A DNA stretch of 64,000 nucleotides from Amycolatopsis sulphurea (GCF_002564045.1 NZ_PDJK01000001.1:1240001-1304000), one strand, 5' to 3'; positions 5,483-45,577 are shown, counted from the first letter of the stretch. The notes: generated from the sequence alone by a model not told the origin. A program made the numbers and translations.

Positions 5483-5527
5483 CGGCGGACCACCGGTCGC
5501 GTCATCACGTCCTCCTGGGGAATGGGG

Positions 5528-5557
5528 CGCACGGCCCGGCCGGAACCGGGCCGTGCG
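5528..5557 (-). terminator. Intercistronic hairpin between binding-protein and permease genes
   Basis: A perfect 12-bp inverted repeat (CGCACGGCCCGG / CCGGGCCGTGCG) with a six-base loop sits in the 101-bp gap of the importer operon. There is no U-run. Such hairpins often cause partial termination or protect the 3' end of the abundant binding-protein message. That role is inferred from position. Confidence 0.6.
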
Positions 5558-5583
5558 TCATGAGCTGTGCTGGGTCCGGCCGG

Positions 5584-7239: not shown

Positions 7240-7517
7240 CAGTTCCTCCGGTTCGACTGACCATCTCCTGCGATGCCCGCGGGAGGTCTCTCGCGGGTGC
7301 TCTTGTCCGGCCCCGTCCGCACGGGGCCGCCGAAGGAAGGGACTCGTCCCGGACTCGCCTCGGCACAGCGGGTGTGCACGGCAGCCATCGGGACCAACCT
7401 CCGATGTGTCGGGGCCGGCGTGGAACCGGTCACGTGTGCTGGATACCTGACCCTGAGTGGTGTATCGGCTAGGCTCAACGTGGTGATGTAGTTTGTCGCA
7501 CACCCCCATGACTGTCA

Positions 7518-7537
7518 AGGCCTACATTCCTAGGTCA
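7518..7537. promoter_or_regulatory. Operator-like inverted repeat, importer/hydrolase intergenic region
   Basis: AGGCCTA-CATTCC-TAGGTCA: each arm matches the consensus TGGCCTA-N6-TAGGCCA at 6 of 7 positions. It lies midway between two divergent genes and could control both. Confidence 0.7.
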
Positions 7538-12467: not shown

Positions 12468-12594
12468 CGGCCCACCCCTGTTCCCCGTTTCCGGACTGTC
12501 ATTGGGACCTCCCCGACCCCGTTCGGACGGCATGGCCTGCCGGTCCGTGGATGAGAACAACCCAAAGTATAGGGCCAAACCCGGCGGTGGTTGC

Positions 12595-12613
12595 CCATAT
12601 TCGCTCGATATGG
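12595..12613. promoter_or_regulatory. CCATAT inverted repeat beside the main operator
   Basis: CCATAT-TCGCTCG-ATATGG, a perfect 6-7-6 inverted repeat that runs into the TGGCCTA operator. A similar CCATAT...ATATG pair precedes the ammonia-lyase operon at 44465-44482, so the two promoters may share a second factor or the regulator may contact extended sites. Confidence 0.5.
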
Positions 12614-12630
12614 CCTACTGTTCTAGGCCA
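12611..12630. promoter_or_regulatory. Best-match operator, GntR/acyl-CoA ligase intergenic region
   Basis: TGGCCTA-CTGTTC-TAGGCCA, a perfect 7-6-7 inverted repeat 57 bp before the ligase start and about 145 bp before the GntR start. It defines the consensus used for the other sites in the window. Confidence 0.8.
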
Positions 12631-12686: not shown

Positions 12687-14351
12687 ATGAACGACTTCCG
12701 GTCCCTGAGAACCCCCGGCGATGCGGATCCGGCGGGTTTCCAGGTTCCCGATCACGCCGATCGGGTCCTGCCCGCACTGCTCACCCGGTGGGCCGAGACC
12801 GACGGAGACCGCGAGTTCCTCCAATTCGGTGCGGACGCCGCGGTGACCTTCCACGACGTCCAGCTCTCGACGAACCGGATCGCGCACACGCTCAAGGGGC
12901 TGGGCCTCGGCGCGGGCGACCGGATCGCGATGCTGGTGCCGAACTGCCTCGAACTGGTGCTGACCTGGTTCGCGGCCGCGAAGCTCGGCGCGGTGGAGGT
13001 GCCGGTCAACATTCAGCTGCGCGGCCGCCTGCTCGCGCATGTCCTCGGCAACTCCGGGGCGAGTGTTCTCCTGTGCCACCAAGACTTTCTCGCCGACATC
13101 GCGGAAACCGTCGCGGCACAGCCCAGCATCACGACCGTCATCGTCGTCGGCGGCTCGCGCGCCGACGCCCGGGAACGCGGCATCACCACCGATCGCGTAC
13201 TCGAATTCCGGGAGCTGACCGAGGGCAGTGCCGCCGCACTCGACCATCGCCCGCACTACTCGGATCCGCTGGCGATCCTGTACACCTCGGGCACCACCGG
13301 TCCGGCCAAGGGCGTGGTCATGCCGCACCACCAGTACTACTTGTGGGTCGAGCTGTACGCGGCGAGCCTGGGGCTCACCCGGGAGGATTCGTACTTCACG
13401 CCGCTGCCGCTGTTCCACGCCGACGGGCAGCTCTGGGGCACCTACTTTCCCCTGGTGTACGGCACGAAAGGCACGTTCGCCGAACGTTTCAGCGTCAGCC
13501 GGTACTGGCAGCAGGCCCGTGACAGCGGTGCGACCGCGACGAACATGCTCGGCGCCATGGCGCACATGCTGTGGAAGCAGCCGCCCGGCGCGGCCGACCG
13601 CCGGCATTCGCTACGGATCGCCCAGGCGCTCCCGATGATCTCGATGAAGTCCGGTTTCGAGGAGCGTTTCGGCTTGCAGCTGGTCACCGCCTACGGGCAG
13701 ACCGAGACCAACTGGGTCGCCTACGACACGGCCGGGGAGTCGCGGCCCGGCTCGTGCGGCAAGGTCGCCGCCGAGCACTTCGACGTGCGGGTGGTCGACG
13801 AGTTCGACGAGCCGTGCCCGCCGGGGCAGGTCGGCGAGATCGTGGTGCGTCCGCGGAATGCGTGGACGATCTCCCGCGGCTACCACGCGATGCCCACCGA
13901 AACCCAGAGTGCCTGGCGGAATCTGTGGTTCCACTCCGGCGACGCCGGGCACCTGGACGCGGACGGCTGGTTGTACTTCGCCGACCGGATCAAGGACGTC
14001 ATCCGGCGCCGCGGCCAGAACATCTCGGCGTTCGAGCTGGAATCGGTCGTCGGCGAGCACCCGCTCGTCGTGGAGAGCGCGGCGGTCGCGGTCGCGTCCG
14101 AGCTGAGCGAAGAGGACGTGCTGCTGATCGTCGTCGCCGCCGAGGGCTCCGCGCTGACGCCCGGCGACGTGCTCGCGCACTGCGTCGACCAGCTGCCGAA
14201 GTTCATGGTGCCGCGCTACGTCGAGGTGCGCACCGACACGCTGCCGCGCACGCCGACGGAAAAGATCGCCAAGACCGAACTCCGGCGCCGTGGGCTGACC
14301 GCCGGGACCTGGGACGCCGAGGCCGACCGGTACGTCGGCACGCACAGCTGA
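12687..14351 (+). CDS. Acyl-CoA ligase (ANL superfamily)
   Basis: 554 residues. The P-loop motif is YTSGTTGPAKG near residue 200, the adenine motif YGQTE, the hinge WFHSGDAGHLDADGWLYFADRIKDVIRRRGQNIS, and the catalytic lysine PTEKIAKTELR near the end. This is the layout of crotonobetaine/carnitine-CoA ligase-like members. It would activate a carboxylic acid with ATP and CoA. The next gene, 27 bp on, is a ThDP lyase, an arrangement like the 2-hydroxyisobutyrate ligase/2-hydroxyacyl-CoA lyase pair of actinobacteria. The acid substrate is inferred from that context only. Confidence 0.9.
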   Translation: MNDFRSLRTPGDADPAGFQVPDHADRVLPALLTRWAETDGDREFLQFGADAAVTFHDVQLSTNRIAHTLKGLGLGAGDRIAMLVPNCLELVLTWFAAAKLGAVEVPVNIQLRGRLLAHVLGNSGASVLLCHQDFLADIAETVAAQPSITTVIVVGGSRADARERGITTDRVLEFRELTEGSAAALDHRPHYSDPLAILYTSGTTGPAKGVVMPHHQYYLWVELYAASLGLTREDSYFTPLPLFHADGQLWGTYFPLVYGTKGTFAERFSVSRYWQQARDSGATATNMLGAMAHMLWKQPPGAADRRHSLRIAQALPMISMKSGFEERFGLQLVTAYGQTETNWVAYDTAGESRPGSCGKVAAEHFDVRVVDEFDEPCPPGQVGEIVVRPRNAWTISRGYHAMPTETQSAWRNLWFHSGDAGHLDADGWLYFADRIKDVIRRRGQNISAFELESVVGEHPLVVESAAVAVASELSEEDVLLIVVAAEGSALTPGDVLAHCVDQLPKFMVPRYVEVRTDTLPRTPTEKIAKTELRRRGLTAGTWDAEADRYVGTHS

Positions 14352-14378: not shown

Positions 14379-16103
14379 GTGCCCAAGCCATCCTCTCCGC
14401 CCACCGTCGCCCAAGCGGTCGCGGCGTTCCTGGCGCAAGCCGGGGTCCGGCGGGTCTACGGACTCACCGGCAGCCACATCAAGCCGATCTGGGAAGCGGT
14501 CACCCACGCCGGCCTGCAGGTGGTCGATGTCCGGCACGAGGCCGCCGCCGTCCACATGGCACAGGCCGAAGCCGACCTCACCGGACGGCTCGCGGTCGCC
14601 ACGGTCACCACGGGGCCCGGCCTGACGAACGCCGTCACCGGCATCGCCGCCGCCGGCTACGCGCGTTCGCCGATCCTGGTGCTGTCCGCGGTGCCGCCAA
14701 GCGATCAGCTCGGCCTCGGCGCGCTCGAAGAACTCGATCAAGCCGAGCTGGTCCGCCCCCTCACCCGTTTCGCCCGGACCGTCCGGCACGACCGGCAGGT
14801 GCTGCCGTTCCTGCACGCCGCCGTCGCCGCCGCGCTCGGGGAGGACGGCCCCGCCGGTCCGTCCTATCTGGACTTTCCCGTGGACGTCCTGCGCGGCGCC
14901 GCACGGTGGTACCGCCCGGACGAGCCGACCAGGGCCCGCAATGCCGCCGGCCCGGTGAATCCCGATCACGGAGCACTCCACGCCGCCGCCGCGGCCATCC
15001 GGGAAAGCCGCCGCCCCATCGTGATCAGCGGTCGCGGCGCCGCGGAGCACCCGCCCGCGCTCGTGGACTTCCTGGACGCGACCGGCGCCCTCTACCTCGA
15101 CACCCCGGAAAGCCGCGGCCTGGTGCCCCCGACGCACGCCGGTTACGTCCCGGCCGTCCGTTCCGCCGCGATGGCCCAGGCCGACACGGTGATCACGATC
15201 GGCAGGCGGCTCGACTTCTCGCTCGGTTACGGCTCCCCCGCGGTCTTCCGGTCCGCGCGCACGTTCGTCCGCATCGGCCGTACTTTCGAGGAGCTGACGG
15301 AAAACCGGGCACCCGACATCGAGGTGAAGGGCGATCCCGGCCGGGTTCTTCCCGCGCTGACCGGCTTGGACGTCACACCGCACGATCCCGACACCGAGTG
15401 GCACTCGCAGCTCCGCGCGGACGACCACCGGCGACGGGACGACTGGGCCGGCAAGGCCCGCGCCACCCCGTACGGCCCGGACGGCCGCATCCACCCGAAC
15501 GCGATGCTCGAAGTCCTCAACCGCACCCTCGACGACCCGTCGGCCCTGCTCATCGCCGATGGCGGCGACATCCTGTCCTTCGCGCGGGTGGGCCTGCGCC
15601 CGCCCGCCCGGCTGGACACCGGCACGTTCGGCTCGCTCGGCGTCGGCGTGCCGTTCGCCGTGGCCGCTTCCCTGATCCACCCTGGCCGCCGCGTCGTCGC
15701 CGTGATCGGAGACGGCGCGTTCGGCTTCAACGCACTCGAACTCGACACCGCCCGGCGGTCGGGTGCGCAGCCGGTGTTCATCATCGCCAACAACCAGGCG
15801 TGGAACATCGAACGCCTCGACCACGTGGAGAACTACGCCTCGAACCCCCACTTCAACACCGAATTGCCGGGCTGCCGCTACGACCGCCTCGCCGACGCGC
15901 TCGGGCTGCACGCCCAGCACGTCACCCGGATCGAGGATCTGGCCCCGGCCATCCGCCTCGCGCTGGCGAACGCGCCGGCCTTGATCGACGTGCAGACCAG
16001 CGGCGAGGTGCCCTCCCCCGATTTCCGGGCGGGGCTGGCGGATCTGCCGGATCTGCACGTATTGCGCGGGTGGGACGAGGCGGAGCGGGGAGGTCTCGGG
16101 TGA
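14379..16103 (+). CDS. ThDP-dependent lyase/decarboxylase, probably 2-hydroxyacyl-CoA lyase type
   Basis: 574 residues from GTG 14379 with GAGGAG upstream. Three-domain ThDP enzyme: the activating Glu54 in VDVRHEAA, central domain, and the ThDP/Mg motif GDGAFGFN...IIANN from about residue 444. Acetolactate synthase, oxalyl-CoA decarboxylase and 2-hydroxyacyl-CoA lyase share this fold. Coupling to an acyl-CoA ligase favours the last two. For 2-hydroxyisobutyryl-CoA the products would be acetone and formyl-CoA. An oxalate pathway (ligase plus decarboxylase) is the main alternative, but no formyl-CoA transferase is present nearby. Confidence 0.85.
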   Translation: MPKPSSPPTVAQAVAAFLAQAGVRRVYGLTGSHIKPIWEAVTHAGLQVVDVRHEAAAVHMAQAEADLTGRLAVATVTTGPGLTNAVTGIAAAGYARSPILVLSAVPPSDQLGLGALEELDQAELVRPLTRFARTVRHDRQVLPFLHAAVAAALGEDGPAGPSYLDFPVDVLRGAARWYRPDEPTRARNAAGPVNPDHGALHAAAAAIRESRRPIVISGRGAAEHPPALVDFLDATGALYLDTPESRGLVPPTHAGYVPAVRSAAMAQADTVITIGRRLDFSLGYGSPAVFRSARTFVRIGRTFEELTENRAPDIEVKGDPGRVLPALTGLDVTPHDPDTEWHSQLRADDHRRRDDWAGKARATPYGPDGRIHPNAMLEVLNRTLDDPSALLIADGGDILSFARVGLRPPARLDTGTFGSLGVGVPFAVAASLIHPGRRVVAVIGDGAFGFNALELDTARRSGAQPVFIIANNQAWNIERLDHVENYASNPHFNTELPGCRYDRLADALGLHAQHVTRIEDLAPAIRLALANAPALIDVQTSGEVPSPDFRAGLADLPDLHVLRGWDEAERGGLG

Positions 16104-34197: not shown

Positions 34198-35862
34198 ATG
34201 AGCCCGTCCCCGATCGACGCCCTCGCCGCCGAATTCCTCGAGGCCATCAGTTCCGCCGATCCGTTCAGCGCCTCGGTCTTCGGCTTGCCCGGCTACGACG
34301 ACCAGGTGCCCGACCTGAGCGCGGACGGCGAAGCGGCGGCCGCGGACCGGCTGCTCGCGCTGGCCGGGCGGGCCGAGGCGATCCCGGCGGACACCCTCTC
34401 CGAGGACGACCAGATCACCCGGGACGTGCTGATCCACACCGCGCACTCGACCGCGTCCCCGCTGACCGACCGGCACGCGGAGTTCGCGCTGGCCGGGCAC
34501 ACCTCGCCGATCACCGCGGTCTTCACCGCGCTGGCGAACACCGCGGTCAAGACCCCGCAGCAGGAACAGGACTACCTGACCCGGCTGCGGCGCTCGGCCG
34601 GATACCTGGCCCAGGTCGGCGAGCGGGCGCTGGCCGGTGCGGCGAGCGGTCAGGTCCCCACCCAGCGCGGGCTGACCCAGGCCATCGACCAGTACACCGG
34701 CTACCTCTCCACCTCGCCGGACGACGATTCGATCGTGCGGACCGTCCGCGGCACCAGGATCGAGGGCGAGGCCCGCGCGCTGGTCGTGGACTCCGTGCGC
34801 CCGGCGATCGCGGCGCTGCTGGAAACGCTGGCCGGCCCGGTCCGGGACAAGGCTCGCTCCGACGACGACAGCGGCGTTCTCCACCTGCCCGACGGTCCGG
34901 CCCTCTACGCCCGCGCGGTCGCCGCGCACACCTCCACCGACCGCGACCCGGAGGAAATCCACCAGCTCGGCCTGGACATCTGCGCCCAGCTGCGGGACGA
35001 ATACGCCGCGCTGGGCAAGAAGGTGTTCGGCACCGGCGACTTCGACACCATCGTCGACCGGCTGCGCAACGACCCCGGCCTGCGCTACGAGACCGACGAC
35101 CAGATCCTCGCCGACACCCGCGGGTTGCTCGCCCGCGCGGAGAGCGTGGTGGGCGACTGGTTCGGCCGCGTCTACCGGACCCCGTGCACGGTCACGCCGA
35201 TCGACGAGGTGCTCGCCCCGACCGCGGTGCCCGGCCAGTATGTGCCGCCGGCCGGGGACGGCAGCCGCCCAGGCCAGTTCCAGGTCAACACCTACCGGCC
35301 GGAGACCCGCACGCGGTACGAGTACGAGACGCTCTCCTTCCATGAGAGCGTCCCCGGCCACCACCTGCAGTTCGCGCTCAGCCAGGAGCTGACCCACCTG
35401 CCGGAGTTCCGCCGTTACCTCTACCTGCCCGCCTTCGGCGAGGGCTGGGGCCTCTACTCCGAGCGGCTCGCCGACGAGATGGGGCTCTACAGCGGCGATC
35501 TGGCCCGCTTCGGGATGGTCTCGTTCGACTCCTGGCGGGCCTGCCGGCTGGTGGTGGACACCGGAATGCACCACCGCGGCTGGACCCGGCAGCAGGCGAT
35601 CGACTTCATGCTCGCCAACAGCGCGCTGACCCCGGGGACCATCATCAACGAGGTCGACCGCTACATCTCCTGGCCGGGACAGGCACTGGGGTACATGATC
35701 GGGCGGCTGGAGATCGAGGGCGCCCGCAAGCGTGCCACCGACCGGCTCGGCGCCGCCTTCGACATCCGGGCCTTCCACGACGTGCTCCACTCCCAGGGCG
35801 CGCTGCCGATGACGGTGCTGAACTCCGTGGTGGACCGCTGGATCGAGCGCACCGCAAGCTGA
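34198..35862 (+). CDS. DUF885 family putative metallopeptidase
   Basis: 554 residues with GGGAGG upstream of the ATG. All-helical protein with the metal-binding HESVPGHH motif near residue 382 and FGEGWGLYSERLADEMG about 30 residues later, as in DUF885 proteins related to M2/M3-like peptidases. No signal peptide, so cytosolic. DUF885 members are thought to be carboxypeptidase-like, but activities are poorly known. Its operator-like site and peptidase neighbours place it in the peptide-degrading regulon. Confidence 0.88.
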   Translation: MSPSPIDALAAEFLEAISSADPFSASVFGLPGYDDQVPDLSADGEAAAADRLLALAGRAEAIPADTLSEDDQITRDVLIHTAHSTASPLTDRHAEFALAGHTSPITAVFTALANTAVKTPQQEQDYLTRLRRSAGYLAQVGERALAGAASGQVPTQRGLTQAIDQYTGYLSTSPDDDSIVRTVRGTRIEGEARALVVDSVRPAIAALLETLAGPVRDKARSDDDSGVLHLPDGPALYARAVAAHTSTDRDPEEIHQLGLDICAQLRDEYAALGKKVFGTGDFDTIVDRLRNDPGLRYETDDQILADTRGLLARAESVVGDWFGRVYRTPCTVTPIDEVLAPTAVPGQYVPPAGDGSRPGQFQVNTYRPETRTRYEYETLSFHESVPGHHLQFALSQELTHLPEFRRYLYLPAFGEGWGLYSERLADEMGLYSGDLARFGMVSFDSWRACRLVVDTGMHHRGWTRQQAIDFMLANSALTPGTIINEVDRYISWPGQALGYMIGRLEIEGARKRATDRLGAAFDIRAFHDVLHSQGALPMTVLNSVVDRWIERTAS

Positions 35863-36149: not shown

Positions 36150-36266
36150 TAAATATTGACTGACCCTGAGGGCTGTCAACGCCTAGCGGTTTGGTTAAAT
36201 ATCTCAGCGCCACCTTGCTGGATTATGCCTTAAACTTGTGCCGACAGGGGGCCGGGATCGACCTAT

Positions 36267-36286
36267 TGGTCTACCTAGCTAGGCCA
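36267..36286 (+). promoter_or_regulatory. Operator-like inverted repeat, proximal site of S9 peptidase gene
   Basis: TGGTCTA-CCTAGC-TAGGCCA: left arm 6 of 7, right arm perfect, 52 bp before the ATG at 36338. Confidence 0.72.
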
Positions 36287-36337
36287 AAGTTGGCGCCTCG
36301 GCCCTGCCTGGCCGTCCGACGACCTGTGGAGGATTCC

Positions 36338-38332
36338 ATGGCCCACCCCGAGCCCGGCGCCCCGTCCGGACCGCTGACCCCGGCCGATCTCGCGGCCCTG
36401 CGGTCCGTCACCGATCCGCAGGTCTCCCGGGACGGGCTGCTGCGGGCGTGCGTGGTGCAGGGGCCGGCACCAGAGCGTGGGGAGCCAGCCCGGTCGGCGA
36501 TCTGGCTGGCCCGCGGGGACGAACCGGCCGCGCCGGTCACCTCCGGCGCCGGAGCCGACCAGGCACCCCGCATCTCGCCGAGCGGGCGGTTCCTCGCCTT
36601 CGCCTCGGACCGGGAGCAGCCGGGGCTGTGGCGGCTCTACATCGCGCCGCTGGACGCGCACGGCACGAACGAGCCGTGGAAGATCGACGCGGTGCCCGGC
36701 GTCGTCGAGGACATCGTGTGGGCGGCCGACGAGTCGGGGCTGGTGGTGCTGACCGCCGACGAGGGGTCCGACGCCGGCAACATCCGCGGCGGCACCCGGT
36801 TCGTCCCGCCGGAGGAGGCCGGCGCCTCGTTCCTCGTGCGCAGGCCGGCCACCGTCCGGCGGCGCGTGCACTGGGTGCGGCTGCCCTCGGGCACCGTGCG
36901 GCAGGTCAGCCCGGACGACCGGACGGTCTGGGAGATCGGCTGGGCCGGGCAGGGCCCGCTGGCCGCGGTGGTGTCCGCCGATCCGACCGAAAGCGGCTGG
37001 TACGACGCGGAACTCGCGACCATCGACCTGGCGGACGCGACCGCCAAGATCGTCTACACCCCGTCCTGGCAGCTGCAGTCCCCCGCGGTCTCCCCGGACG
37101 GGCGCTCGATCGCGTTCCTGGAGGCACCGCAGAGCGACCGCGCCCTGCTGGCCGGCTCGCTGACCATCCTCGACCTGGACACCGGAACGGTCACCCGGCC
37201 CGAGCACGAGGCCGACCTGACCCGGGTGCGCTGGACCGCCGACGGCCGGCTCTTCTGGGTCGGCGTCGCCTCCGTCGAGACCGCCTGCGGATTCTTCCGC
37301 CCGGCGGAGACCGGCTGGCAGCTCGACCAGCGCTGGCGCGGCCTGGGCACCCTCGGCCGCACCTACCTGACCGCCGCCACCTGCAGTCTCGACGGCACCA
37401 CGATCGTCGCCGGATTCCAGGCGCACAACGAGCCGCCCGAACTCCGGCAACTCGGTCAGCGGTCCGGCGAGCCGCCGCACTGGCGTGCGCTCACCAGCCT
37501 CAACACCGCGCTCGCCGGACGGGCGAAGGTCCGCGAGAGCGTGCACAAGTGGAAGTCCTCCGACGGCGTCGAGATCGAGGGGATCCTGCTCCTGCCCGAA
37601 AGCGGGTACGAGACTCCCCTGCCGCTCGTCGTGGTGCCGCACGGCGGTCCCACCAACGCCACGACCTCGGTGTTCGCCGCGGGTGCACACCGTGGCGACG
37701 GGATCCTGCTGGCCCAGGCCGGCTGCGCGGTGCTGCTGCCCAACCCGCGCGGCTCGACCGGCCGCGGCCGGGAGTTCATGGCCGCCAACCTCGGCGACAT
37801 GGGCGGCGGCGACCTGCGCGATCTGGAATCCGGGGTCGACTCGCTGGCCGCGGCCGGGATCGCCGACCCGGCGCGGGCCGGGATCGTCGGCATCTCCTAC
37901 GGCGGGTTCATGTCCGCCTGGGCGGCCGCGTGCAGCGACCGGTTCGCCGCGGCGATCCCGATCTCCGGCATCACCGACTGGCTGAGCTTCCACCACACCT
38001 CGAACCTCGGCCGGTTCGACGAGATCTACCTCGACGGCACCCCCTACGACCCGTCCGGTCCGTATCTGGACCGCTCCCCGGTGTTCCACGCCGCGAAGTG
38101 CCGCACGCCGACCCTGCTGCTGCACGGCGACGCCGACCTCGCCTGCCCGGTGACCCAGGCGCAGGAGTTCTACCAGGCCCTCGCCGCGGTGGGCTGCGAA
38201 ACGGAATTCGTCACCTACAAGGGTGCCGGGCACGGAATGACCGAACGCGAGCACGTGCTCGACGTGGCCGAGCGCATTCTCGGCTGGTTCTCCCGGCACC
38301 TCGGATTCCCGGTCCCCGGCAGCACGCCGTGA
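36338..38332 (+). CDS. S9 family prolyl oligopeptidase/acylaminoacyl peptidase
   Basis: 664 residues from ATG 36338 with GGAGG at the right distance; a longer frame from 36191 has no ribosome site. An N-terminal beta-propeller (residues ~60-390) precedes the alpha/beta hydrolase domain with nucleophile GISYGGFMSAW near residue 519, aspartate in LLLHGDADLACPV and histidine in GAGHGMT. PHGGPTN is the typical oxyanion region. It cleaves short peptides after proline or removes acylated N-terminal residues in the cytosol. N-acetylated, Aib/Pro-rich peptides would suit this class, but that is inference. Confidence 0.92.
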   Translation: MAHPEPGAPSGPLTPADLAALRSVTDPQVSRDGLLRACVVQGPAPERGEPARSAIWLARGDEPAAPVTSGAGADQAPRISPSGRFLAFASDREQPGLWRLYIAPLDAHGTNEPWKIDAVPGVVEDIVWAADESGLVVLTADEGSDAGNIRGGTRFVPPEEAGASFLVRRPATVRRRVHWVRLPSGTVRQVSPDDRTVWEIGWAGQGPLAAVVSADPTESGWYDAELATIDLADATAKIVYTPSWQLQSPAVSPDGRSIAFLEAPQSDRALLAGSLTILDLDTGTVTRPEHEADLTRVRWTADGRLFWVGVASVETACGFFRPAETGWQLDQRWRGLGTLGRTYLTAATCSLDGTTIVAGFQAHNEPPELRQLGQRSGEPPHWRALTSLNTALAGRAKVRESVHKWKSSDGVEIEGILLLPESGYETPLPLVVVPHGGPTNATTSVFAAGAHRGDGILLAQAGCAVLLPNPRGSTGRGREFMAANLGDMGGGDLRDLESGVDSLAAAGIADPARAGIVGISYGGFMSAWAAACSDRFAAAIPISGITDWLSFHHTSNLGRFDEIYLDGTPYDPSGPYLDRSPVFHAAKCRTPTLLLHGDADLACPVTQAQEFYQALAAVGCETEFVTYKGAGHGMTEREHVLDVAERILGWFSRHLGFPVPGSTP

Positions 38333-38473: not shown

Positions 38474-39430
38474 GTGGTCGACAAGCTTCAGGTGAGCAGC
38501 CGTTCGGATGTGCCGATCTACCGGCAGATCGTCACCCAGCTGTCGTTCATGATCGAGGCCGGCGATCTCGCCCCCGGCCAGGCCCTGCCCAGTGCCCGGA
38601 TGCTGGCCGACAACCTGCGCATCAACCGCAACACGGTGGCGCACGCCTATGCCGAGCTGGCCGAGCTCGGACTGGTCGAGGGGCGCGGGCGCAGCGGCAC
38701 GATCGTGGTCGGCCCGGCCGCCGAGCCGGAGGGCACGCCGGAGCGCGGCAAGGCCCGCGAGGTGCTGCAGGGCGCCATCCGCGAATGCGTCGAGCTGGGC
38801 ATGTCCGCGGTGGAGATCCAGTCCCTGGTGCTCAACCTCGCGCTGCGCGCCGAGGACGACCAGCTGAAGATCTCCTTCGTCGAGTGCAATTCCGACCGGG
38901 CGAAGTACTTCGCCAGCGAGCTGGAGCAGCACATAGGGATGCGGGTCACGCCGCTGGTGCTGGGCGAGTTCACCGCCGCCGAGGAGCCCGCCGACCTGGT
39001 GCTGACCACCTTCTTCCACCTCGCCGAGGTGCGCACGCTGATGCGCCGGCAGCCGGCCGAGGTGGTGGCCATCGTGGTCGCCCCGCACGTGCAGACCCTG
39101 GTGCGGATCGCCGCCGCGGCCCGCACCGGCACGGTCGGCATCTGGTACCGCACCGACGAGCAGGCCGTCACCGTCCGGGATTCCCTGCTGGACTCCGGCA
39201 TCGAGAACGTCCGCGTGCTCGAAGGCGTGACCGACCGCGATCTGGCCGGCATCGACCTGGTGGTCGTGCCGAACGAGGTGCCCGAAATCAAGGAACGGCT
39301 CGAAGGCCGGATCGAGGTGATCGAGTTCGGCAACGTCCTCGACACCGCGTCGATCCGGATGGTCAACGAGGTGGTACGCGACATGCAGGCCGCCAAGCGC
39401 GAAACCCCCGACCGCCTCGCCGCTTCCTGA
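38474..39430 (+). CDS. GntR-family regulator with unusual effector domain, paralogue 2
   Basis: 318 residues from GTG 38474. Winged helix VPIYRQIVTQLSFMIEAGDLAPGQALPSARMLADNLRINRNTVAHAYAELAELGLVEGRGRSGTIVV, then the same 230-residue C-terminal domain as the protein at 11.5 kb (FVECNSDRAKYFASELEQHIGM, TTFFHLAEVRTLMRR, VVAPHVQTLVRIAAAARTGTVGIWY, VIEFGNVLDTASIRMVNEVV). The shared effector domain and shared upstream motif suggest that both proteins sense related compounds. It converges with the B12-mutase operon. Confidence 0.88.
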   Translation: MVDKLQVSSRSDVPIYRQIVTQLSFMIEAGDLAPGQALPSARMLADNLRINRNTVAHAYAELAELGLVEGRGRSGTIVVGPAAEPEGTPERGKAREVLQGAIRECVELGMSAVEIQSLVLNLALRAEDDQLKISFVECNSDRAKYFASELEQHIGMRVTPLVLGEFTAAEEPADLVLTTFFHLAEVRTLMRRQPAEVVAIVVAPHVQTLVRIAAAARTGTVGIWYRTDEQAVTVRDSLLDSGIENVRVLEGVTDRDLAGIDLVVVPNEVPEIKERLEGRIEVIEFGNVLDTASIRMVNEVVRDMQAAKRETPDRLAAS

Positions 39431-39520: not shown

Positions 39521-39940
39521 TCAGCGGCCCTGGTTGGCGTTCGAGGTGATGAACTCGACCAGCGCCGAGGTCGGGGTGCCGGGGCCGAAGACCTCGTGCA
39601 CGCCGTAGCCGCGCAGGGTGTCCGCGTCCTCCGGCGGCACCGTGCCACCGACCAGGAACAGCACGTCGTCCCGGCCGTTGTCGCGCAACAGCTGGCACAG
39701 CTCCTTCGCGTACTCCAGGTGCGCGCCGGACAGGCTGGACAAGCCGAGCACGTCCGCGTCCTCCTGCACCACGGCCCGCAGAATGGACTCCGGGGTCTGG
39801 TAGATGCCGGTATAGACCACTTCCATCCCGGAGTCGCGCAACGCCCGCGCGACCACCTTCGCCCCGCGGTCATGGCCGTCCAGGCCGGGCTTGGCGATCA
39901 CGACCTTGATCGGGGCCTGCCGGTTCACCGGTGACTTCAT
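39521..39940 (-). CDS. B12-dependent acyl-CoA mutase, small cobalamin-binding subunit
   Basis: 139 residues from ATG 39940 (AGGAGC upstream). It is a stand-alone cobalamin-binding domain: GLDGHDRGAKVVARALRD supplies the axial ligand His23, followed by the Ser-Leu segment LGLSSLSGAHL and the GG loop VGGTVPPEDADTL. In methylmalonyl-CoA mutase this domain is usually fused; separate small subunits are found in isobutyryl-CoA and 2-hydroxyisobutyryl-CoA mutases. It follows the large subunit gene by 17 bp. Confidence 0.93.
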   Translation of the reverse strand: MKSPVNRQAPIKVVIAKPGLDGHDRGAKVVARALRDSGMEVVYTGIYQTPESILRAVVQEDADVLGLSSLSGAHLEYAKELCQLLRDNGRDDVLFLVGGTVPPEDADTLRGYGVHEVFGPGTPTSALVEFITSNANQGR

Positions 39941-39957
39941 GTCGTTGCTCCTGCTCT

Positions 39958-41649
39958 CTAGAAGACGGTCGACGGCTGGTGGTGGCCCCACACGCCGCGC
40001 AGCACGTCGCAGATCTCGCCGACGGTCGCGCGGGCCCGCACGGCTTCCTCGATCAGCGGCATCAGGTTGTGGTGCAGGTCCGGGGCGGCCTTCTCGATCG
40101 CGCCGAGCGCGGCGCTCACCCGCCGCCCTTCCCGGGTGCGCTTGACCTCGGCGAGCCGGGTCATCTGCCGTTCCATCACGCCGGGCACGGGCCGGTCGAT
40201 CTCGATGTCGAGCTGCTCGTTCTCGTCGATGTAGTCGTTCATCCCGACCACCACCGTGTCGCCGCTCTCGATCCGGGTCTGCTGCTCCCAGGAGGAGTCC
40301 GCGATCAGCTGGGCGGCGTAGCCGGATTCGACCGCGCCGATCATGCCGCCCATCCCGTCGACGCGTTCGATCAGCGAGCGCGCCTCCTCCTCGATCTGGT
40401 TGGTCAGCGTTTCCACGTAGTACGAACCGGCGAGCGGGTCCACCACGTCGGCCGCGCCGGTCTCGTGCAGGATGATCGCCTGGGTGCGCACCGCGATCCG
40501 GATCGCGCTCTCCGACGGGATGGACAGCGCCTCGTCGAGCGAGTTGGTGTGCAGGGACTGGGTTCCGCCGAGGATCGCGGCCATCGCCTGGATCGCCGTG
40601 CGGGCGACGTTGTTGTAGGGCTGCTGCGCGGTCAGCGAAACCCCCGAGGTCTGGCAGTGCGCGCGCATCAGCCAGGACCGCGGATCCTTGCAGCCGAGCC
40701 GTTCCCGGGTCAGCCTCGCCCACAACCGCCGGGCCGCACGGAGTTTCGCGGCCTCCTCGAAGAAGTTGTTGTGCACGTTCCAGAAGAACGACACCCGGGG
40801 CGCGAGCCGGTCCGGGTCGATCCCCCGTTCGATGCCCTTTTCCATGTAGCACAAGGCATTGCTGAGGGTCAGCCCGACCTCTTCGACGGCGGTCGCCCCG
40901 GCGTCGCGGATGTGGTAGCCGCACACGTTGAGCGGGTTGAACCGCGGCATCACGTCCGCGCCGTACTCCATGGTGTCCACCACCAGGTGCACCGAGGGCT
41001 CGGGCGGGAAGATGAACTCGTTCTGGGCGATGTACTCCTTGAGGATGTCGTTCTGCGTGGTGCCGGTCAGCACGTGCCCGGGGAACCCTCGTTCCTCGCC
41101 CACCACGCGGTACATCGCCAGCAGCACCGCGGCGGAGGGATTGATGGTCAGCGAGGTGGAGATCCGGTCCAGCGGGATGCCGTCGAACAGCGCGTGCATG
41201 TCGACCACGGTGTCCACCGCCACGCCGATCCGGCCGACCTCGCGCCGGTACACCTCGTGGTCGGAGTCGTAGCCGAGCAGCGTGGGCAGGTCGAAGTCGG
41301 TGGACAGCCCGGTCTGGCCGGCGTCCAGCAGGTACTTGTAGCGGTTGTTGGTGTCCTCGGCCTGGCCGAACCCCGCCACCTGGCGGATGGTCCACGGACG
41401 CCCGCGGTACATCGTGGAGTGCACGCCACGGGTGTAGGGGTACTCCCCGGGCAGCCCGATGTCGGTCTCCGGGTCGCTGTCCCGGATGTCGGCGCTGGTG
41501 TAGACGTCCTTGACCTTCGTCCCCGAGGACGTCCGGAACTCCGCCCGCCGCGGCGGGATCCGTTCGTAGTCGGCGGCGACGCGCTCGCGCCGCCACTGCT
41601 CGACGTGCTCGTCCCAGCGCTGGTCTCCGTTACCGGTCATGATGTCCAT
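39958..41649 (-). CDS. B12-dependent acyl-CoA mutase, large subunit (2-hydroxyisobutyryl-CoA mutase-like)
   Basis: 563 residues from ATG 41649, preferred to the ATGA-overlapping ATG at 41640 because AAGGAGG is correctly spaced. TIM barrel without the cobalamin domain. Anchored on TIRQVAGFG, LSTDFDLPT and QNDILKEYIAQN, the substrate pocket has Val91 where methylmalonyl-CoA mutase has Tyr89 (Phe80 in isobutyryl-CoA mutase, Ile90 in 2-hydroxyisobutyryl-CoA mutase), Gln209 in place of Arg207, and Asp118 at the position of the diagnostic Asp117 of 2-hydroxyisobutyryl-CoA mutase. So it is not a methylmalonyl-CoA mutase: it should move a C1 group or CoA-carbonyl next to a polar alpha substituent. 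With the ammonia-lyase in the operon, 2-aminoisobutyryl-CoA to 3-aminobutyryl-CoA is the favoured reaction. Confidence 0.92.
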   Translation of the reverse strand: MDIMTGNGDQRWDEHVEQWRRERVAADYERIPPRRAEFRTSSGTKVKDVYTSADIRDSDPETDIGLPGEYPYTRGVHSTMYRGRPWTIRQVAGFGQAEDTNNRYKYLLDAGQTGLSTDFDLPTLLGYDSDHEVYRREVGRIGVAVDTVVDMHALFDGIPLDRISTSLTINPSAAVLLAMYRVVGEERGFPGHVLTGTTQNDILKEYIAQNEFIFPPEPSVHLVVDTMEYGADVMPRFNPLNVCGYHIRDAGATAVEEVGLTLSNALCYMEKGIERGIDPDRLAPRVSFFWNVHNNFFEEAAKLRAARRLWARLTRERLGCKDPRSWLMRAHCQTSGVSLTAQQPYNNVARTAIQAMAAILGGTQSLHTNSLDEALSIPSESAIRIAVRTQAIILHETGAADVVDPLAGSYYVETLTNQIEEEARSLIERVDGMGGMIGAVESGYAAQLIADSSWEQQTRIESGDTVVVGMNDYIDENEQLDIEIDRPVPGVMERQMTRLAEVKRTREGRRVSAALGAIEKAAPDLHHNLMPLIEEAVRARATVGEICDVLRGVWGHHQPSTVF

Positions 41650-42542
41650 CGGCGCACCGCCTCCTTCAAAATCCGTTCCACGGCGTTCTGCATCGGTTCG
41701 TGCGGGTCCAGCGCGATCGACGCCGCGCAGTCGCCCACCCACGCCTCGGCCACGAGTGCCGCGTCCGAGCCCCATTTCTCCGCCCGCTCGGCGGCGAGCC
41801 TGCCGCCGTCGAGCAGTGCCTGCCAGCGTTTCTGCAGGCCGGTCCGCAGTTCGTCGACCCCGGTGCCGTCCACCGCCACGGTCTTGTAGACCGCGTCCGC
41901 CCGGCCGGCCGCCAGCCGCAGGTGCCGCGCGGTCTCCGCGGCTCCGGGCCGGTCGGCCATGTTGACCACGAACGAGTCCGCGATCTCCATCAGCCCGGCC
42001 TTGATCGTCTGCACCGCGTCGCCCAGCCCCGGCACGGTGACCAGCAGGACGGTGTCGGCGACCTCGACGATCGCGACCTCGGTCTGCCCGGCGCCCACGG
42101 TCTCGATCAGCACCACGTCGAACAGGCCGGACAGCTCCAGCAGCCGCGCGATGTTGCGGGTGGCCCCGGCGACCGCGCCGTGCGAGCCGCGGCTGGCGAG
42201 GCTGCGCACGAACACCCCCGGCCGTCCGGCCAGGTGGGTCTCCATCCGGATCCGGTCGCCGAGCACGGCGCCGCCGCTGAGCGGGCTGGACGGGTCGATG
42301 GCCAGCACCGCGACCCGTTCGCCGACGTCCACAAAGGACTCGATCAGCCGTCCGGTGAGGGTGCTCTTGCCCGCGCCCGGCGGTCCGGTGATGCCCACGA
42401 TGTGGCAGGGCCGCGATGCCCGCGGCACCGACACCTCCCACGGCGGGCTGTTCTCCACCACGGTCACCGCACGGGCCAGTGGTGCCCACATCCCGGTGCG
42501 CGCTTTCTCGACCAGCGCGTCGATTTCGTCAGATTCGAACAA
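41637..42542 (-). CDS. meaB: MeaB-like G-protein chaperone of the B12 mutase
   Basis: 301 residues. Walker A GPPGAGKST (53-61), switch region ETVGAGQTEVAI, and the guanine-specificity motif as VNMADRPGA, where the usual form is NKAD. MeaB proteins gate adenosylcobalamin delivery to the mutase and release of damaged cofactor. It overlaps the ligase gene by 14 bases and the mutase gene by a few, so the chaperone and enzyme are made together. The NMAD change may loosen GTP specificity. Confidence 0.93.
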   Translation of the reverse strand: MFESDEIDALVEKARTGMWAPLARAVTVVENSPPWEVSVPRASRPCHIVGITGPPGAGKSTLTGRLIESFVDVGERVAVLAIDPSSPLSGGAVLGDRIRMETHLAGRPGVFVRSLASRGSHGAVAGATRNIARLLELSGLFDVVLIETVGAGQTEVAIVEVADTVLLVTVPGLGDAVQTIKAGLMEIADSFVVNMADRPGAAETARHLRLAAGRADAVYKTVAVDGTGVDELRTGLQKRWQALLDGGRLAAERAEKWGSDAALVAEAWVGDCAASIALDPHEPMQNAVERILKEAVRRWTS

Positions 42543-44004
42543 GGTCGATCGTCCCGTCCATGATCATCCGCTTCACCGCGTCCTTGGCGGCCTTGCCGAT
42601 CCCGGTGGTGGGGAAGGCCGTCACCAGCCCCGCCCCGCTCGGCCGCTGATACTTCGCGACCCCGGCCCGGCAGTGCGCCAGCAGTTCCGCGGCGCTGAGC
42701 GCGTGACCCGGCCGGGCCACCGCCACCACCACCGGTGTCTCGCCCCACCGCGGGCTCGGGATCCCCACGACGATCGCGCGTTCCACGGCCGGATGCCGGG
42801 CGGCGACCGCCTCGATCTCCACCGGCGCGATGTTGAATCCGCCGGAGATGATGATGTCCTTGCTGCGCCCGGTCAGGTGCACCAGCCCGCGCTCGTCGAT
42901 CCGGCCGAGATCCCCGGTGCGCATCGCGCCGTCCGGGGCGAGCGCCGCCTTCGTGGCCACCTCGTCCCGGTGATACCCGGCCATCCGGGCGGGACTCGCG
43001 CCGAGCAGTTCCCCGCCGCCTTCGGCATCCACCACCAGCCGCGTGGTGGGGAAGGCATAGCCGACCGTGCCCGGTTCTTCGCGCAGCAGCCGATGCGGGG
43101 CCGCGCTCAGCGGCAGCACCTCGGTCATCCCGTACAGCTGGTGGGTCTCCACCCCGGGCAGCTCGTCCCACCAGCGCTCCAGCAGCGGCACCGGCATCGG
43201 CTCGGAGGCGAACAGCACCCACCGCAGGTGGGCGAGCTTGCCCAGCGGCGCGTGTTCGAGCAGCCGGCTCAGGATGGTCGGCACCGCGTCGAAGGTGGTG
43301 GCGCGGGTGCAGGCGTCAGCCACGCGGTCGACGTCGAATCCCGGGAGGATCTCCAGGGAACCGCCCGTGCAGAGCACTGGGAGGACCTGTTCGGGGATGC
43401 ACGCGTGCAGCGGGAGGAACACCACCGACCGGTCGTCGGCGCAGAACGGGAACGCGGAAGTGAGCTGCAGGACCGCGTGCAGCATGGTCGCCTGGGTGTG
43501 CATGACGCCCTTGGGCAGCCCGGTGGACCCGCTGGTGAGCATGATCGTGCACACCGCTTCCGGCCGGACCTCGGGCAGCCTGCCCGCGCCCGTCGGCTCC
43601 GGATCGGCGCCCGGGTCCATCGGCAGCAGCTCGAAGTGCTCTGCCAGCGTTTCCCGGACCGGATCCCCGAGCTGCCCGGCGAAGACCCGTTTGGGCGCCA
43701 CCGAGGCCAGCTGACGCTGCGCGGTGCCCGCGTCGAGCATCGCGTTCACCGGTACCGCGATTCCACCGGCCCGCATGATCCCGAGGTAGGTGGCCACGTA
43801 GGCGGGCTCGTTCGCGCCGATCAGGCCGACCGGATCGCCCATCCGGTGCCCGCGGCGCAGCAGCAGCCGGGCGACTTCGCCCGCTCTGTCCCACAGGTCC
43901 CGATAGGTCCAGACCACCTGATCGCCGACGAGGGCGGGCGAGCCCGCGTGCGCCCGCGCCACCGCACCCACCCACGCCACGACGGAATCCGCCGCGACGG
44001 CCAC
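42529..44004 (-). CDS. Acyl-CoA ligase (ANL superfamily) of the B12-mutase operon
   Basis: 491 residues from GTG 44004, one base after the lyase stop. Motifs: TSGSTGLPKGV, YGMTE, MRTGDLGRIDERGLVHLTGRSKDIIISGGFNI and the terminal lysine region TTGIGKAAKDAVK. It activates a carboxylic acid as a CoA thioester. In 2-hydroxyisobutyrate-degrading bacteria a similar ligase accompanies the mutase and MeaB genes. Here the substrate is more likely an amino acid such as Aib, because the next gene upstream codes for an aminoacyl-CoA ammonia-lyase homologue. Confidence 0.9.
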   Translation of the reverse strand: MAVAADSVVAWVGAVARAHAGSPALVGDQVVWTYRDLWDRAGEVARLLLRRGHRMGDPVGLIGANEPAYVATYLGIMRAGGIAVPVNAMLDAGTAQRQLASVAPKRVFAGQLGDPVRETLAEHFELLPMDPGADPEPTGAGRLPEVRPEAVCTIMLTSGSTGLPKGVMHTQATMLHAVLQLTSAFPFCADDRSVVFLPLHACIPEQVLPVLCTGGSLEILPGFDVDRVADACTRATTFDAVPTILSRLLEHAPLGKLAHLRWVLFASEPMPVPLLERWWDELPGVETHQLYGMTEVLPLSAAPHRLLREEPGTVGYAFPTTRLVVDAEGGGELLGASPARMAGYHRDEVATKAALAPDGAMRTGDLGRIDERGLVHLTGRSKDIIISGGFNIAPVEIEAVAARHPAVERAIVVGIPSPRWGETPVVVAVARPGHALSAAELLAHCRAGVAKYQRPSGAGLVTAFPTTGIGKAAKDAVKRMIMDGTIDLVRI

Positions 44005-44005
44005 C

Positions 44006-44410
44006 TCAGGCTTCCCCGGGTGCCGTGCGATCGACGGTGGCGACGACGATGGTCGCCTCCGCCGTGGCCGCCAGGACGGGTTCGGTCAGGTTCCGGACGC
44101 CCTTGTCGTCGACGCCCAGTACTTTGTAGATCTTCGCTTCGATGGTGCGGCTGCGGCGGCCGCGCCGGACCACCTTCGCGACGCCTTCGACGAAATCGCC
44201 GACCCGCAGCGGTGCCAGGAACTGCACGGAATCGTAGGCCGCGCACAGGCCTTCGTCGCCGCCCTCGCGCAGGGCGATCTCGGTCTCCAGATCGGCGAAG
44301 ATCTCCATCGCCTTGGAGCCCGCGGCCAGGTCGCCGGCATACCGCGCGTCGGCAGGAGCCAAGCGGAGCCGGATGAAGGCGTCGTACTCGGTGGAGTTCG
44401 GCTGAACCAT
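44006..44410 (-). CDS. 3-aminobutyryl-CoA/beta-alanyl-CoA ammonia-lyase-like hotdog protein
   Basis: 134 residues from ATG 44410 with GAGAGGAG upstream. The pattern RLRLAPADARYAGDLAAGSKAMEIFADLETEIALREGGDEGL, then YDSVQFLAPLRVGDFVEGVAKV, closely follows clostridial 3-aminobutyryl-CoA ammonia-lyase (Kal) and beta-alanyl-CoA ammonia-lyase (Acl), including the DAxYAGxL start and GDEGL. It would remove ammonia from a 3-aminoacyl-CoA to give an enoyl-CoA. It is first in the five-gene operon and has an operator-like site 62 bp upstream. A plain hotdog thioesterase or MaoC-type hydratase fits the motifs less well. Confidence 0.8.
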   Translation of the reverse strand: MVQPNSTEYDAFIRLRLAPADARYAGDLAAGSKAMEIFADLETEIALREGGDEGLCAAYDSVQFLAPLRVGDFVEGVAKVVRRGRRSRTIEAKIYKVLGVDDKGVRNLTEPVLAATAEATIVVATVDRTAPGEA

Positions 44411-44471
44411 GGGACTCCTCTCCCCGGCCGGGACGACCCTGCCCCGGCACGGGACCCAGGTTAAGCCATAT

Positions 44472-44491
44472 CGACCCATATGACTAGGCCA
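44472..44491 (-). promoter_or_regulatory. Operator-like inverted repeat before the B12-mutase operon
   Basis: CGACCCA-TATGAC-TAGGCCA: perfect right arm, left arm 4 of 7. A CCATAT...ATATG repeat overlaps it, as at the ligase/GntR promoter at 12.6 kb. Confidence 0.62.
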
Positions 44492-44536: not shown

Positions 44537-45577
44537 CTACTCGGCAGGCCGCCCGGGCACCCCCATCACGGTGCGCAGGACGCGCATCGCGTTGCCACCC
44601 AAGACCTTCCGGACGTCCTCGTCGCTGAACCCGCGCGAGACCATCTCGTCGGTCAGCTTCGGCAGATCCGCGGGCCGCTGGATCTCGGCGACCTCCCAGT
44701 CCGGGGTGAGTCCGAGGCCGGGGGCCTGCCAGCCGCCGAACACCTCGTCGAAGTAATCGTCGACGAAGTCCGGGCCCAGCCCCACCGCGTCGATCGAGCC
44801 GACCGAGGCCAGGTGCTCGATGTGGTCCACGACCCGGGCCGCGGTCGGGCGTGCGGGATCGATGAAGGGCGGGATGGCCGCCGCCACGCCGATCACGCCG
44901 CCGAGGTCGGAGATGGCCTTCACCTGCTGATCGGAGAGGTTGCGGTGCACGTCGGCGACCGCCCGGCAGCCGGAGTGGGTGGCCAGCAGCGGACGGCTCG
45001 CCCGGGCGAGCACGTCGTCCACCCCGGCCACGCCGAGGTGGCTGACGTCGAACACGATGCCCAGCCGCTCCATCTCGTCGAGCACCTCGATGCCCTGCGG
45101 GGTGAGCCCGCCACGGGAGAAATCGTCGAGGCCGCTGCCGTCGGCGAGAAAGGTCCGGCCGAGGTGGGCCAGCGAGACCACCCGCACCCCGACCCGGCCC
45201 ATGGTGCGGATCAGCTCCGGATCCTGGCCCAGCCCGTGCGCGCCTTCCAGCGCGAGCACGAACGCGATCCGCCCGGCCGCCACCGCGGCGTCGACCTCGG
45301 CGCCGGTCAGGCAGATCCGGACGTCGGCGGGGTGCTCCTCGGCGAGCCGGTGGATCCGCTCGGCCAGCAACAGGGTCCGGCGCAGCCCGCCCTCGGACTG
45401 GAACTGGTCCTCCAGGCAGATCGGCAGCACCTGCACCTTGACCCCGCCCGCGCGCAGCTGCGGCAGCCAGAATTCGGCGAAATGCCCCGGCTTGCCCCGG
45501 CGGTCGAAGTGGTCCACGAGCAGGATGAGGTCGTTGTGCAGATCGACGACCGTCGCGTTCCGGTGCAGCTCGGTCAT
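44537..45577 (-). CDS. M19 membrane dipeptidase (complete metal site)
   Basis: 346 residues. Unlike the two copies at the left edge it has the N-terminal HND metal motif (VVDLHNDLILLV). The remaining ligands are visible in FVLALEGAHGLG, VFDVSHLGVAG and LLATHSGCRAVADVHRNLSDQQ, and C-terminal GLGPDF and GGNAMRVL are typical. It hydrolyses dipeptides in the cytosol, including ones with unusual C-terminal residues. It lies directly upstream of the B12-mutase operon on the same strand, 126 bp away, which links dipeptide cleavage to the mutase pathway. Confidence 0.92.
   Translation of the reverse strand: MTELHRNATVVDLHNDLILLVDHFDRRGKPGHFAEFWLPQLRAGGVKVQVLPICLEDQFQSEGGLRRTLLLAERIHRLAEEHPADVRICLTGAEVDAAVAAGRIAFVLALEGAHGLGQDPELIRTMGRVGVRVVSLAHLGRTFLADGSGLDDFSRGGLTPQGIEVLDEMERLGIVFDVSHLGVAGVDDVLARASRPLLATHSGCRAVADVHRNLSDQQVKAISDLGGVIGVAAAIPPFIDPARPTAARVVDHIEHLASVGSIDAVGLGPDFVDDYFDEVFGGWQAPGLGLTPDWEVAEIQRPADLPKLTDEMVSRGFSDEDVRKVLGGNAMRVLRTVMGVPGRPAE

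Follow-up and report, generated by a model that had tools for sequence, protein, structure and literature searches.

A conserved five-gene B12-mutase operon of Amycolatopsis sulphurea and a candidate CoA-ester route for 2-aminoisobutyrate

A stretch of 64,000 nucleotides from Amycolatopsis sulphurea (GCF_002564045.1, NZ_PDJK01000001.1:1240001-1304000; hereafter the window, with positions counted from its first letter) carries between 39,521 and 44,491 a compact operon built around a B12-dependent acyl-CoA mutase. A frame check of the window found all five reading frames open on the minus strand from 44410 down to 39521, in the 5' to 3' order of an ammonia-lyase homologue, an acyl-CoA ligase, a MeaB-type chaperone, and the large and small subunits of the mutase, with overlaps of 13–14 bases or gaps of 1 and 17 bases between neighbours. 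An earlier reading of the DNA (the sequence-only reading) had described five coupled genes in this order and had proposed that they form a new route for 2-aminoisobutyrate (Aib), an amino acid that is not transaminated in the usual way. The order and the tight coupling are confirmed, and the family assignments hold as well: 4HBT hotdog with KAL as the best NCBIfam match, AMP-binding plus AMP-binding_C, MeaB, MM_CoA_mutase and B12-binding. The genes, their conserved order and co-occurrence, the clade and pocket residues of the mutase, a decarboxylase neighbour and a common palindrome are described below as they were read from the DNA, and the chemistry of the route is a prediction.

The ammonia-lyase homologue

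Enzymes of the KAL family convert 3-aminobutyryl-CoA to crotonyl-CoA and ammonia. The resemblance of the operon's first protein to 3-aminobutyryl-CoA and beta-alanyl-CoA ammonia-lyases, claimed in the sequence-only reading, was borne out by profile, by sequence and by fold. The NCBIfam scores are 106.9 bits for KAL (cut-off 160), 77.5 for the fused KAL model and 22.3 for the thioesterase YciA, and the best PDB match is 4mtu, the beta-alanyl-CoA:ammonia lyase Acl, which a profile search of solved structures placed at 3e-17 with the next entry at 5e-9. An AlphaFold model built on a 24-row alignment (pLDDT 86.6) likewise had 4mtu as its best Foldseek match (1e-9, TM 0.79), and thioesterases came close behind, from 1e-7. 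Judged by profile, solved relative and modelled fold, the protein is nearest the beta-aminoacyl-CoA ammonia-lyases, ahead of the thioesterases, and a plain thioesterase was set aside on these grounds even though thioesterases follow so closely. Tyr24, Thr43-Glu44 and Tyr59 are common to the lyase homologue, Acl and the homologues of Fusobacterium and Acetoanaerobium, which we take to be lysine fermenters, and are absent from three thioesterases. Position 23 is Arg in all 24 lyase homologues aligned and in 115 of the 120 listed among 415 found, the other five being unreadable by pattern. The residue alignment comprises 45 rows, eight of them misframed, which lowers the counts to 35–37 of 45, and L039 and L043 are without a frame. 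The longest frame of the window gene, from a GTG, begins at 44518, upstream of the ATG used here.

A long N-terminal extension is present in 14 of the 116 listed lyases in which the motif EGGDEGLC was found (120 listed of 415 found), and in some relatives a RidA-like domain precedes the lyase (P0064, P0070, P0074, P0087, P0105 and L008:2776-3690). Pfam confirmed this domain in two of the fusions (P0074 and L008), and the others were taken from a precomputed Pfam column. The catalytic Arg of RidA was not in place in six fusions inspected by eye, and the fusion was not used as proof of imine chemistry.

The mutase

The closest solved relative of the large subunit is the 2-hydroxyisobutyryl-CoA mutase (HCM) 4r3u, at 574 bits, followed by human methylmalonyl-CoA mutase at 506 bits. 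At the positions of Ile90 and Asp117 of the HCM pocket, 4r3u has Ile and Asp, and the best 120 of 7999 scored mutase homologues, the window enzyme included, have Val91 and Asp118 in 120 of 120 cases each. The 54 other mutase rows aligned read Tyr-Ala (29), Phe-Ala (23) or Ile-Asp (2), such that an equivalent of Asp118 occurs only in the last two and Ala in the remaining 52. Both Ile-Asp rows belong to comparison loci of Xanthobacter and Agrobacterium that are annotated only as methylmalonyl-CoA mutase and that were taken as HCM-type from their layout and their Ile-Asp residues.

In the alignment with human methylmalonyl-CoA mutase, the window enzyme has Val for Tyr at 91 and Gln for an Arg that presumably binds the substrate carboxylate; the Gln is common to the window mutase and HCM. 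Methylmalonyl-CoA mutase and isobutyryl-CoA mutase were rejected as identities, the pocket residues being different. Because of Asp118 and the replacement of Arg by Gln, the substrate is expected to be a short acyl group with a polar substituent on C2 and no second carboxylate. Of the features that mark HCM, the Asp is present, and the Ile and a PaaK-type ligase (PF14535) in the operon are absent. The window enzyme is about 48% identical to the two HCM-type mutases, and in a tree of 37 mutase rows the 14 members of its group cluster with 100/100 support as a separate clade, which a long branch sets apart from the two HCM-type rows; the sister group of this Val91/Asp118 clade is unsure because long branches meet there. 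By these alignments the mutase is a clade of its own within a known enzyme family, set in a new operon context. Two cobalamin adenosyltransferase genes (L161:11649-13318) lie about 14–16 kb from the operon in a genome of the Jiangella genus group (G124) and possibly serve cofactor supply.

Conservation of the gene set

A close homologue of the lyase is present at nine loci: the window, Jiangella endophytica (L005), J. muralis (L006), Streptomyces samsunensis (L007), a metagenome-assembled genome (MAG) of the Actinomycetota (L008), and four loci of the Jiangella genus group (L050–L053). A search for the five-gene set in other genomes had been proposed with the sequence-only reading, and all nine loci proved to hold the complete set in identical order. 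No mutase was seen in the 18–19.5 kb fetched of each of 14 loci whose lyase homologue is a distant one only (L054–L067). Among 394 genomes of the class, a close lyase (at least 219 bits; next 106) occurs in seven and a close mutase (above 1100 bits; next 575) in the identical seven, and no further close mutase was found in 396 genomes of the phylum, where the best other match scored 637 bits. The five-gene set is not due to chance. One genus supplies six of the seven genomes, so co-inheritance as well as co-selection lies behind the co-occurrence; these six genomes of one genus group (the loci L005 and L006 plus G124, G134, G154 and G174) are called Jiangella-type below. In addition, 18 of 38 lyase clusters whose longest contig is at least 6 kb have a listed mutase on a contig of exactly that length, a weak indication drawn from the best 120 of each list.

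Another set of KAL-like hotdog genes, scoring 108–126 bits, occurs in 21 Actinomycetota genomes besides the window (L039–L049, L060–L067), with no mutase operon in the eight loci for which wider context was fetched (L060–L067). On Streptomyces plasmids (L140:3242-8152 and L159), a hotdog gene or fusion distantly related to KAL is accompanied by genes for a holo-ACP synthase, an AMP-ligase and a carrier protein as well as ectoine-type genes, a set that possibly carries out carrier-bound amine addition or elimination.

The ligase

The sequence-only reading had also likened the combination of ligase, MeaB and split mutase to the layout of HCM loci. MeaB and the split mutase sustain that comparison; the ligase does not, being of another family than the ligases of the two HCM-type loci. 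It carries PF13193, its counterparts at the Xanthobacter and Agrobacterium loci are of the PaaK type (PF14535), and the two kinds give only local matches of 19–67 amino acids at E 0.004 or worse, with no full-length similarity. Jiangella-type loci have a second ligase, adjoining a gene for a 2-hydroxyacyl-CoA lyase (HACL), that is 59–63% identical to the window operon ligase; nine operon ligases and six of these second ligases are separated by 15 fixed differences, and both have Glu at the acyl pocket as we placed it. The ligase gene directly upstream of HACL in the window encodes a protein of another subfamily than the operon ligase, which gives no match to it of at least 90 bits.

Neighbouring genes

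The features of the operon and its surroundings are collected in Table 1. The M19 dipeptidase gene had been reported directly upstream of the operon; it is indeed upstream and on the same strand, and between it and the lyase start lies a gap of 126 bases that holds an operator-like palindrome. Genes for M19, S9, S58, DUF885 and gamma-glutamyltranspeptidase proteins recur around the operon. An M19 protein 75–78% identical to that of the window is encoded near the operon in all six Jiangella-type loci, and five of the six have a DUF885 gene next to the operon. The S58 gene, presumably of the DmpA/BapA type, stands directly behind the mutase small subunit in all six and in S. samsunensis, whose operon-adjoining S58 is 73% identical to the window protein. 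S9 genes are found near the S. samsunensis operon and in the Jiangella-type cluster of G134, where peptide-binding protein and permease genes come after the decarboxylase and S9 genes. The GntR regulator next to the window operon likewise has homologues close to the operon of S. samsunensis and to those of Jiangella-type loci.

Table 1. Features of the A. sulphurea window, with strand and supporting evidence
Feature	Position	Strand	Remarks
Second M19 dipeptidase	798..1790	-	PF01244 215.3 bits; downstream of transporter genes
Oligopeptide ABC transporter	1810..7518	-	PF00496, PF00528 (twice), PF00005 with oligo_HPY
Transporter parts	solute-binding 7518-5584; permeases 5482-4517, 4520-3645; double ATPase 3648-1810	-	
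Palindrome	7519..7536	.	12/12; directly upstream of longest frame of peptide-binding protein gene
S58 peptidase	10156..11304	-	PF03576 370.6 bits; near HACL
Palindrome	11447		11/12; before S58 peptidase
Second GntR-family regulator	11478..12578	-	PF00392; 45% identical to first GntR over 304 aa
Palindrome	12612..12629	.	12/12; divergent promoter, second GntR versus ligase-HACL
Acyl-CoA ligase directly upstream of HACL	12687..14351	+	PF00501 + PF13193; PDB neighbours FadD13, oxalate-CoA ligase
Actinobacterial 2-hydroxyacyl-CoA lyase (HACL)	14379..16103	+	NCBIfam NF058623 644.8 bits (cut-off 600)
DUF885 protein	34198..35862	+	PF05960 507 bits
Palindromes	36131, 36268		both 11/12; upstream of S9 ATG 36338
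S9 prolyl-oligopeptidase-family peptidase	36191..38332 (ATG 36338)	+	PF00326
GntR-family regulator	38474..39430	+	318 aa; PF00392; candidate operon regulator
B12-binding mutase small subunit	39521..39940	-	139 aa; PF02310 96 bits; TIGR00640 159.3 bits
B12-dependent acyl-CoA mutase large subunit, Val91/Asp118 clade	39958..41649	-	PF01642 687 bits; predicted 2-aminoisobutyryl-CoA mutase
MeaB-type G-protein chaperone	41637..42542	-	TTG start; PF03308 232.9 bits; TIGR00750 241.6 bits (cut-off 240.75)
AMP-forming acyl-CoA ligase	42529..44004	-	491 aa; PF00501 + PF13193; predicted Aib-CoA ligase
Hotdog-fold protein, beta-alanyl-CoA / 3-aminobutyryl-CoA ammonia-lyase family	44006..44410	-	134 aa from ATG, operon's first gene; predicted 3-aminobutyryl-CoA ammonia-lyase
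Palindrome	44473..44490	.	11/12; about 63 bases upstream of lyase start
M19 dipeptidase	44537..45577	-	PF01244 263.1 bits; upstream of operon, same strand

A class-III aminotransferase encoded near the operon in Jiangella was identified as a 2,2-dialkylglycine decarboxylase by comparison with solved enzymes (1d7r), the proteins of L005 and L160 scoring 603.2 and 616.5 bits and the next family 237.8 and 225.1; the remaining decarboxylase neighbours were identified by their match to the L005 protein only. Such a gene is found no more than about 8 kb from the operon in all six Jiangella-type genomes, the sixth (G134:C1:2033902) encoding a protein 74% identical to that of L005, and in the MAG (L008) it follows 1.8 kb behind the mutase small subunit. 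Aib is an important residue of peptaibols (PMC10169451).

Other genes in these regions include one at window 8958-10073, between transporter and S58, whose product is a serine hydrolase of PF00144, with a fold of the class C beta-lactamase-like family, and could be a D-aminopeptidase or an esterase belonging to the same gene set. Genes for S10 serine carboxypeptidases (L164:5545-7041 and L167:17682-19160) were seen immediately to the left of the window and, in the Jiangella-type genome G174, some 18 kb away from the operon, which suggests a wider shared peptidase region. The window genome has a decarboxylase homologue of its own on the other replicon (G000:C2:4931881-4933155, L166), 62% identical to the Jiangella one and beside a divergent gene that was judged LysR-like by eye.

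An operator-like palindrome

The pattern GRCCTA-N6-TAGGYC was drawn by eye from the promoters of the lyase, S9, DUF885, second GntR/ligase and S58 genes of the window and of the lyase and M19 genes of Jiangella, and sites in these promoters are not independent evidence because the pattern was taken from them. The decarboxylase sites and the site at 7519 were found afterwards, by scanning. Among Jiangella-type loci, a 12/12 site precedes the decarboxylase in all five that have this gene in range (L005, L006, L051, L052, L053) and the lyase operon in all six, and a site of 11–12/12 lies between an amidohydrolase gene and M19 in five of six, with 10/12 in L006.

Sites of this quality are rare elsewhere. 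In 597,630 bases from 100 other loci there were none at 12, one at 11 and 40 at 10 or better, and 143 kb of flanking and own-genome DNA held no site of at least 11/12. Thirty first-order Markov copies of the window gave expectations of 0.03 (12/12) and 0.13 (11/12), against two and four observed. With a shorter pattern, seven sites were seen versus 1.09 expected from shuffles; one of 100 shuffles reached as high, the largest count being eight. The sites at 10/12 are not above chance, given the eight of them in the window, including the one at 34129 before DUF885, and the 40 in the control bases; no site of even 10/12 or better stands in front of the window M19 gene. The palindrome is a likely control site common to the operon and to peptide-uptake and peptidase genes, and on the sequence evidence the operon is probably part of a new regulon.

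Proposed pathway and alternatives

We consider it reasonably probable that the operon degrades Aib by way of Aib-CoA and a B12-dependent rearrangement to 3-aminobutyryl-CoA, which is then likely deaminated to crotonyl-CoA. In such a route the oligopeptide transporter and the M19, S9, S58 and DUF885 peptidases would deliver free Aib, and the operon ligase would convert it to Aib-CoA. By analogy with HCM, the MeaB-protected mutase would use an adenosyl radical to abstract a methyl hydrogen, whereupon the CO-SCoA group would move to give 3-aminobutyryl-CoA, with Asp118 holding the amino group. The hotdog lyase, if it acts as its family does, would release ammonia and crotonyl-CoA, the latter entering beta-oxidation. 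Activation, rearrangement and deamination were the steps of the sequence-only reading, and they are now accompanied by a decarboxylase in the cluster, behind the same site in five loci, and by peptidases, a transporter, the lyase family and the polar pocket; what has changed is that the ligase is not of the HCM type and that HACL, behind the same site, leaves an acetone route into the mutase.

Several observations weigh against the Aib-CoA route. The first protein scores below the KAL equivalog cut-off, and where it has Arg23, Acl and the Fusobacterium and Acetoanaerobium homologues have the His of a DAHY motif. The sequence of the operon ligase gives no direct signal of specificity. Dialkylglycine decarboxylase is not confined to operon genomes, being present in 12 of 197 sampled genomes, of which six have the operon and six are among the 191 others; the operon would moreover be a second Aib route in the same cells, because this enzyme already degrades Aib. 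A simple regulon is also at odds with the absence of sites of at least 11/12 from L160 (with the sixth decarboxylase, S9 and binding-protein genes), from the binding-protein genes of L162 and L164, from the region preceding the decarboxylase gene of the window genome itself (L166), and from the S. samsunensis and MAG loci. Finally, HACL at E of at most 1e-120 occurs in six of the 197 genomes, which are all six known operon genomes (five of one genus) and none of the 191 others. This confinement links HACL to the operon, and a plain Aib-CoA route does not need it.

The window HACL keeps an AWNIER segment in alignment with a solved lyase, within which the catalytic Glu493 of 2-hydroxyacyl-CoA lyase (PMC8760513) would fall. 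The HACL homologue of S. samsunensis scores 535 bits against the Jiangella protein; a ligase-HACL fusion is not claimed for this species, since the upstream part of the long open frame did not seem to be in frame. The presence of HACL underlies the main rival, which stands ahead of the others and which we nonetheless regard as unlikely: dialkylglycine decarboxylase would produce acetone from Aib, HACL running in reverse would join it with formyl-CoA to 2-hydroxyisobutyryl-CoA, the mutase would form 3-hydroxybutyryl-CoA, and the hotdog protein would dehydrate this product to crotonyl-CoA. Acetone reassimilation explains HACL better, because the direct route has no use for it, and the genomes of all four lineages have homologues of both HACL and the decarboxylase. 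HACL, operon and decarboxylase lie within 10.3 kb in MAG L008, and the ligase-HACL pair of the window stands behind a 12/12 site. A combined lyase-mutase acetone pathway has been proposed for Desulfococcus biacutus (PMC7176365), and a reversible reaction has been described for the actinobacterial lyase (PMC8760513). Acetone reassimilation nevertheless leaves unexplained both the conserved ammonia-lyase-family first gene and the operon's own ligase; the annotation of the two HCM-type loci lists no ammonia-lyase-family gene within 6–7 kb, and the S. samsunensis operon is found together with peptidase genes, with the homologues of HACL and of the decarboxylase on separate contigs. The direct Aib-CoA route is favoured because it alone accounts for that first gene and that ligase, and a mutase taking both substrates would serve both the Aib-CoA and the acetone entries.

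It is improbable, in our judgement, that the locus is a variant HCM operon in which 2-hydroxyisobutyrate is activated and rearranged to 3-hydroxybutyryl-CoA, with the hotdog protein as a thioesterase or dehydratase helper. The kinship to 4r3u as closest solved mutase, the Asp118 in common and a gene content similar to that of HCM-type loci speak for it; against it stand the Val for Ile in all of the best 120 homologues, the modest identity and separate clade of the mutase, a ligase from another family, and peptidase and dialkylglycine decarboxylase neighbours that point to an amino acid. Judged by family, the HACL of the same genomes would, furthermore, already handle 2-hydroxyisobutyryl-CoA.

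We give equally little credence to the same chemistry with a different alpha-amino acid, for instance isovaline or alanine, whose alpha-aminoacyl-CoA would be turned into a beta-aminoacyl-CoA and then into enoyl-CoA and ammonia: the lyase family also contains beta-alanyl-CoA lyase, Val in place of Ile would give more room, and isovaline is named as a peptaibol residue (PMC10169451), but simpler routes exist for alanine, and the exact product match (3-aminobutyryl-CoA) and the dialkylglycine decarboxylase indicate Aib first.

Relation to known systems and significance

The nearest described arrangement is the 2-hydroxyisobutyryl-CoA mutase operon (hcm/rcm: GntR, small subunit, HCL ligase, MeaB, large subunit), which has in common with the present one the split B12 mutase, MeaB, a ligase, GntR and the pocket Asp; the operon described here differs in its Val for Ile, its separate mutase clade, an unrelated ligase subfamily, another gene order and the additional ammonia-lyase-family first gene. 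That first protein is akin to Kal of lysine fermentation and to Acl in its hotdog fold, in Tyr24, Thr43-Glu44 and Tyr59, and in being matched best by them in sequence and fold, whereas its score below the KAL cut-off, Arg in place of His at 23, the mutase-operon setting and the RidA-like fusion of some relatives set it apart. The 2,2-dialkylglycine decarboxylase, which converts Aib to acetone, CO2 and alanine, would act on the substrate predicted here, and its gene is a Jiangella-type neighbour with the same site in five loci; it works by a pyridoxal phosphate (PLP)-dependent decarboxylating transamination, however, and the operon is without a PLP enzyme.

The sequence-only reading had given decarboxylating transamination and hydroxylation as the known Aib routes, in agreement with the two catabolic solutions described in the accessible part of PMC7782822. 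The AibH1H2GF system of Rhodococcus wratislaviensis presented there is, like the route proposed here, an actinobacterial Aib catabolism independent of dialkylglycine decarboxylase, but it proceeds through an oxygenase and methylserine, with no mutase, ligase or lyase described in that part of the paper (PMC7782822). The beta-valine pathway of BvaA and BvaB resembles the proposal in that a CoA ligase is followed by a beta-aminoacyl-CoA ammonia-lyase; BvaB differs from the operon lyase in being an enoyl-CoA hydratase relative, and no mutase is described in the accessible part of that source (PMC4619459). A literature search, with most subscription papers outside its reach, found no title or abstract opening reporting an aminoisobutyryl-CoA mutase route.

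Taken as a whole, the proposal is of a third catabolic route for Aib, in which the first alpha-aminoacyl-CoA mutase, itself PLP-free, would turn the CoA thioester of an alpha,alpha-dialkyl alpha-amino acid into a beta-amino acid and be followed by a hotdog ammonia-lyase, within a one-palindrome regulon dedicated to the import, hydrolysis and consumption of Aib-rich fungal peptides such as peptaibols, and for this full picture we hold the case for and against to be evenly balanced. With a common site and a defined gene set, the route is directly testable in culturable Jiangella. If true, it would extend the B12 acyl-CoA mutases by a new reaction, provide a PLP-free conversion of an alpha- to a beta-amino acid that would be of use in biocatalysis, and account for the bacterial use of fungal peptides that are rich in Aib and resist proteases.

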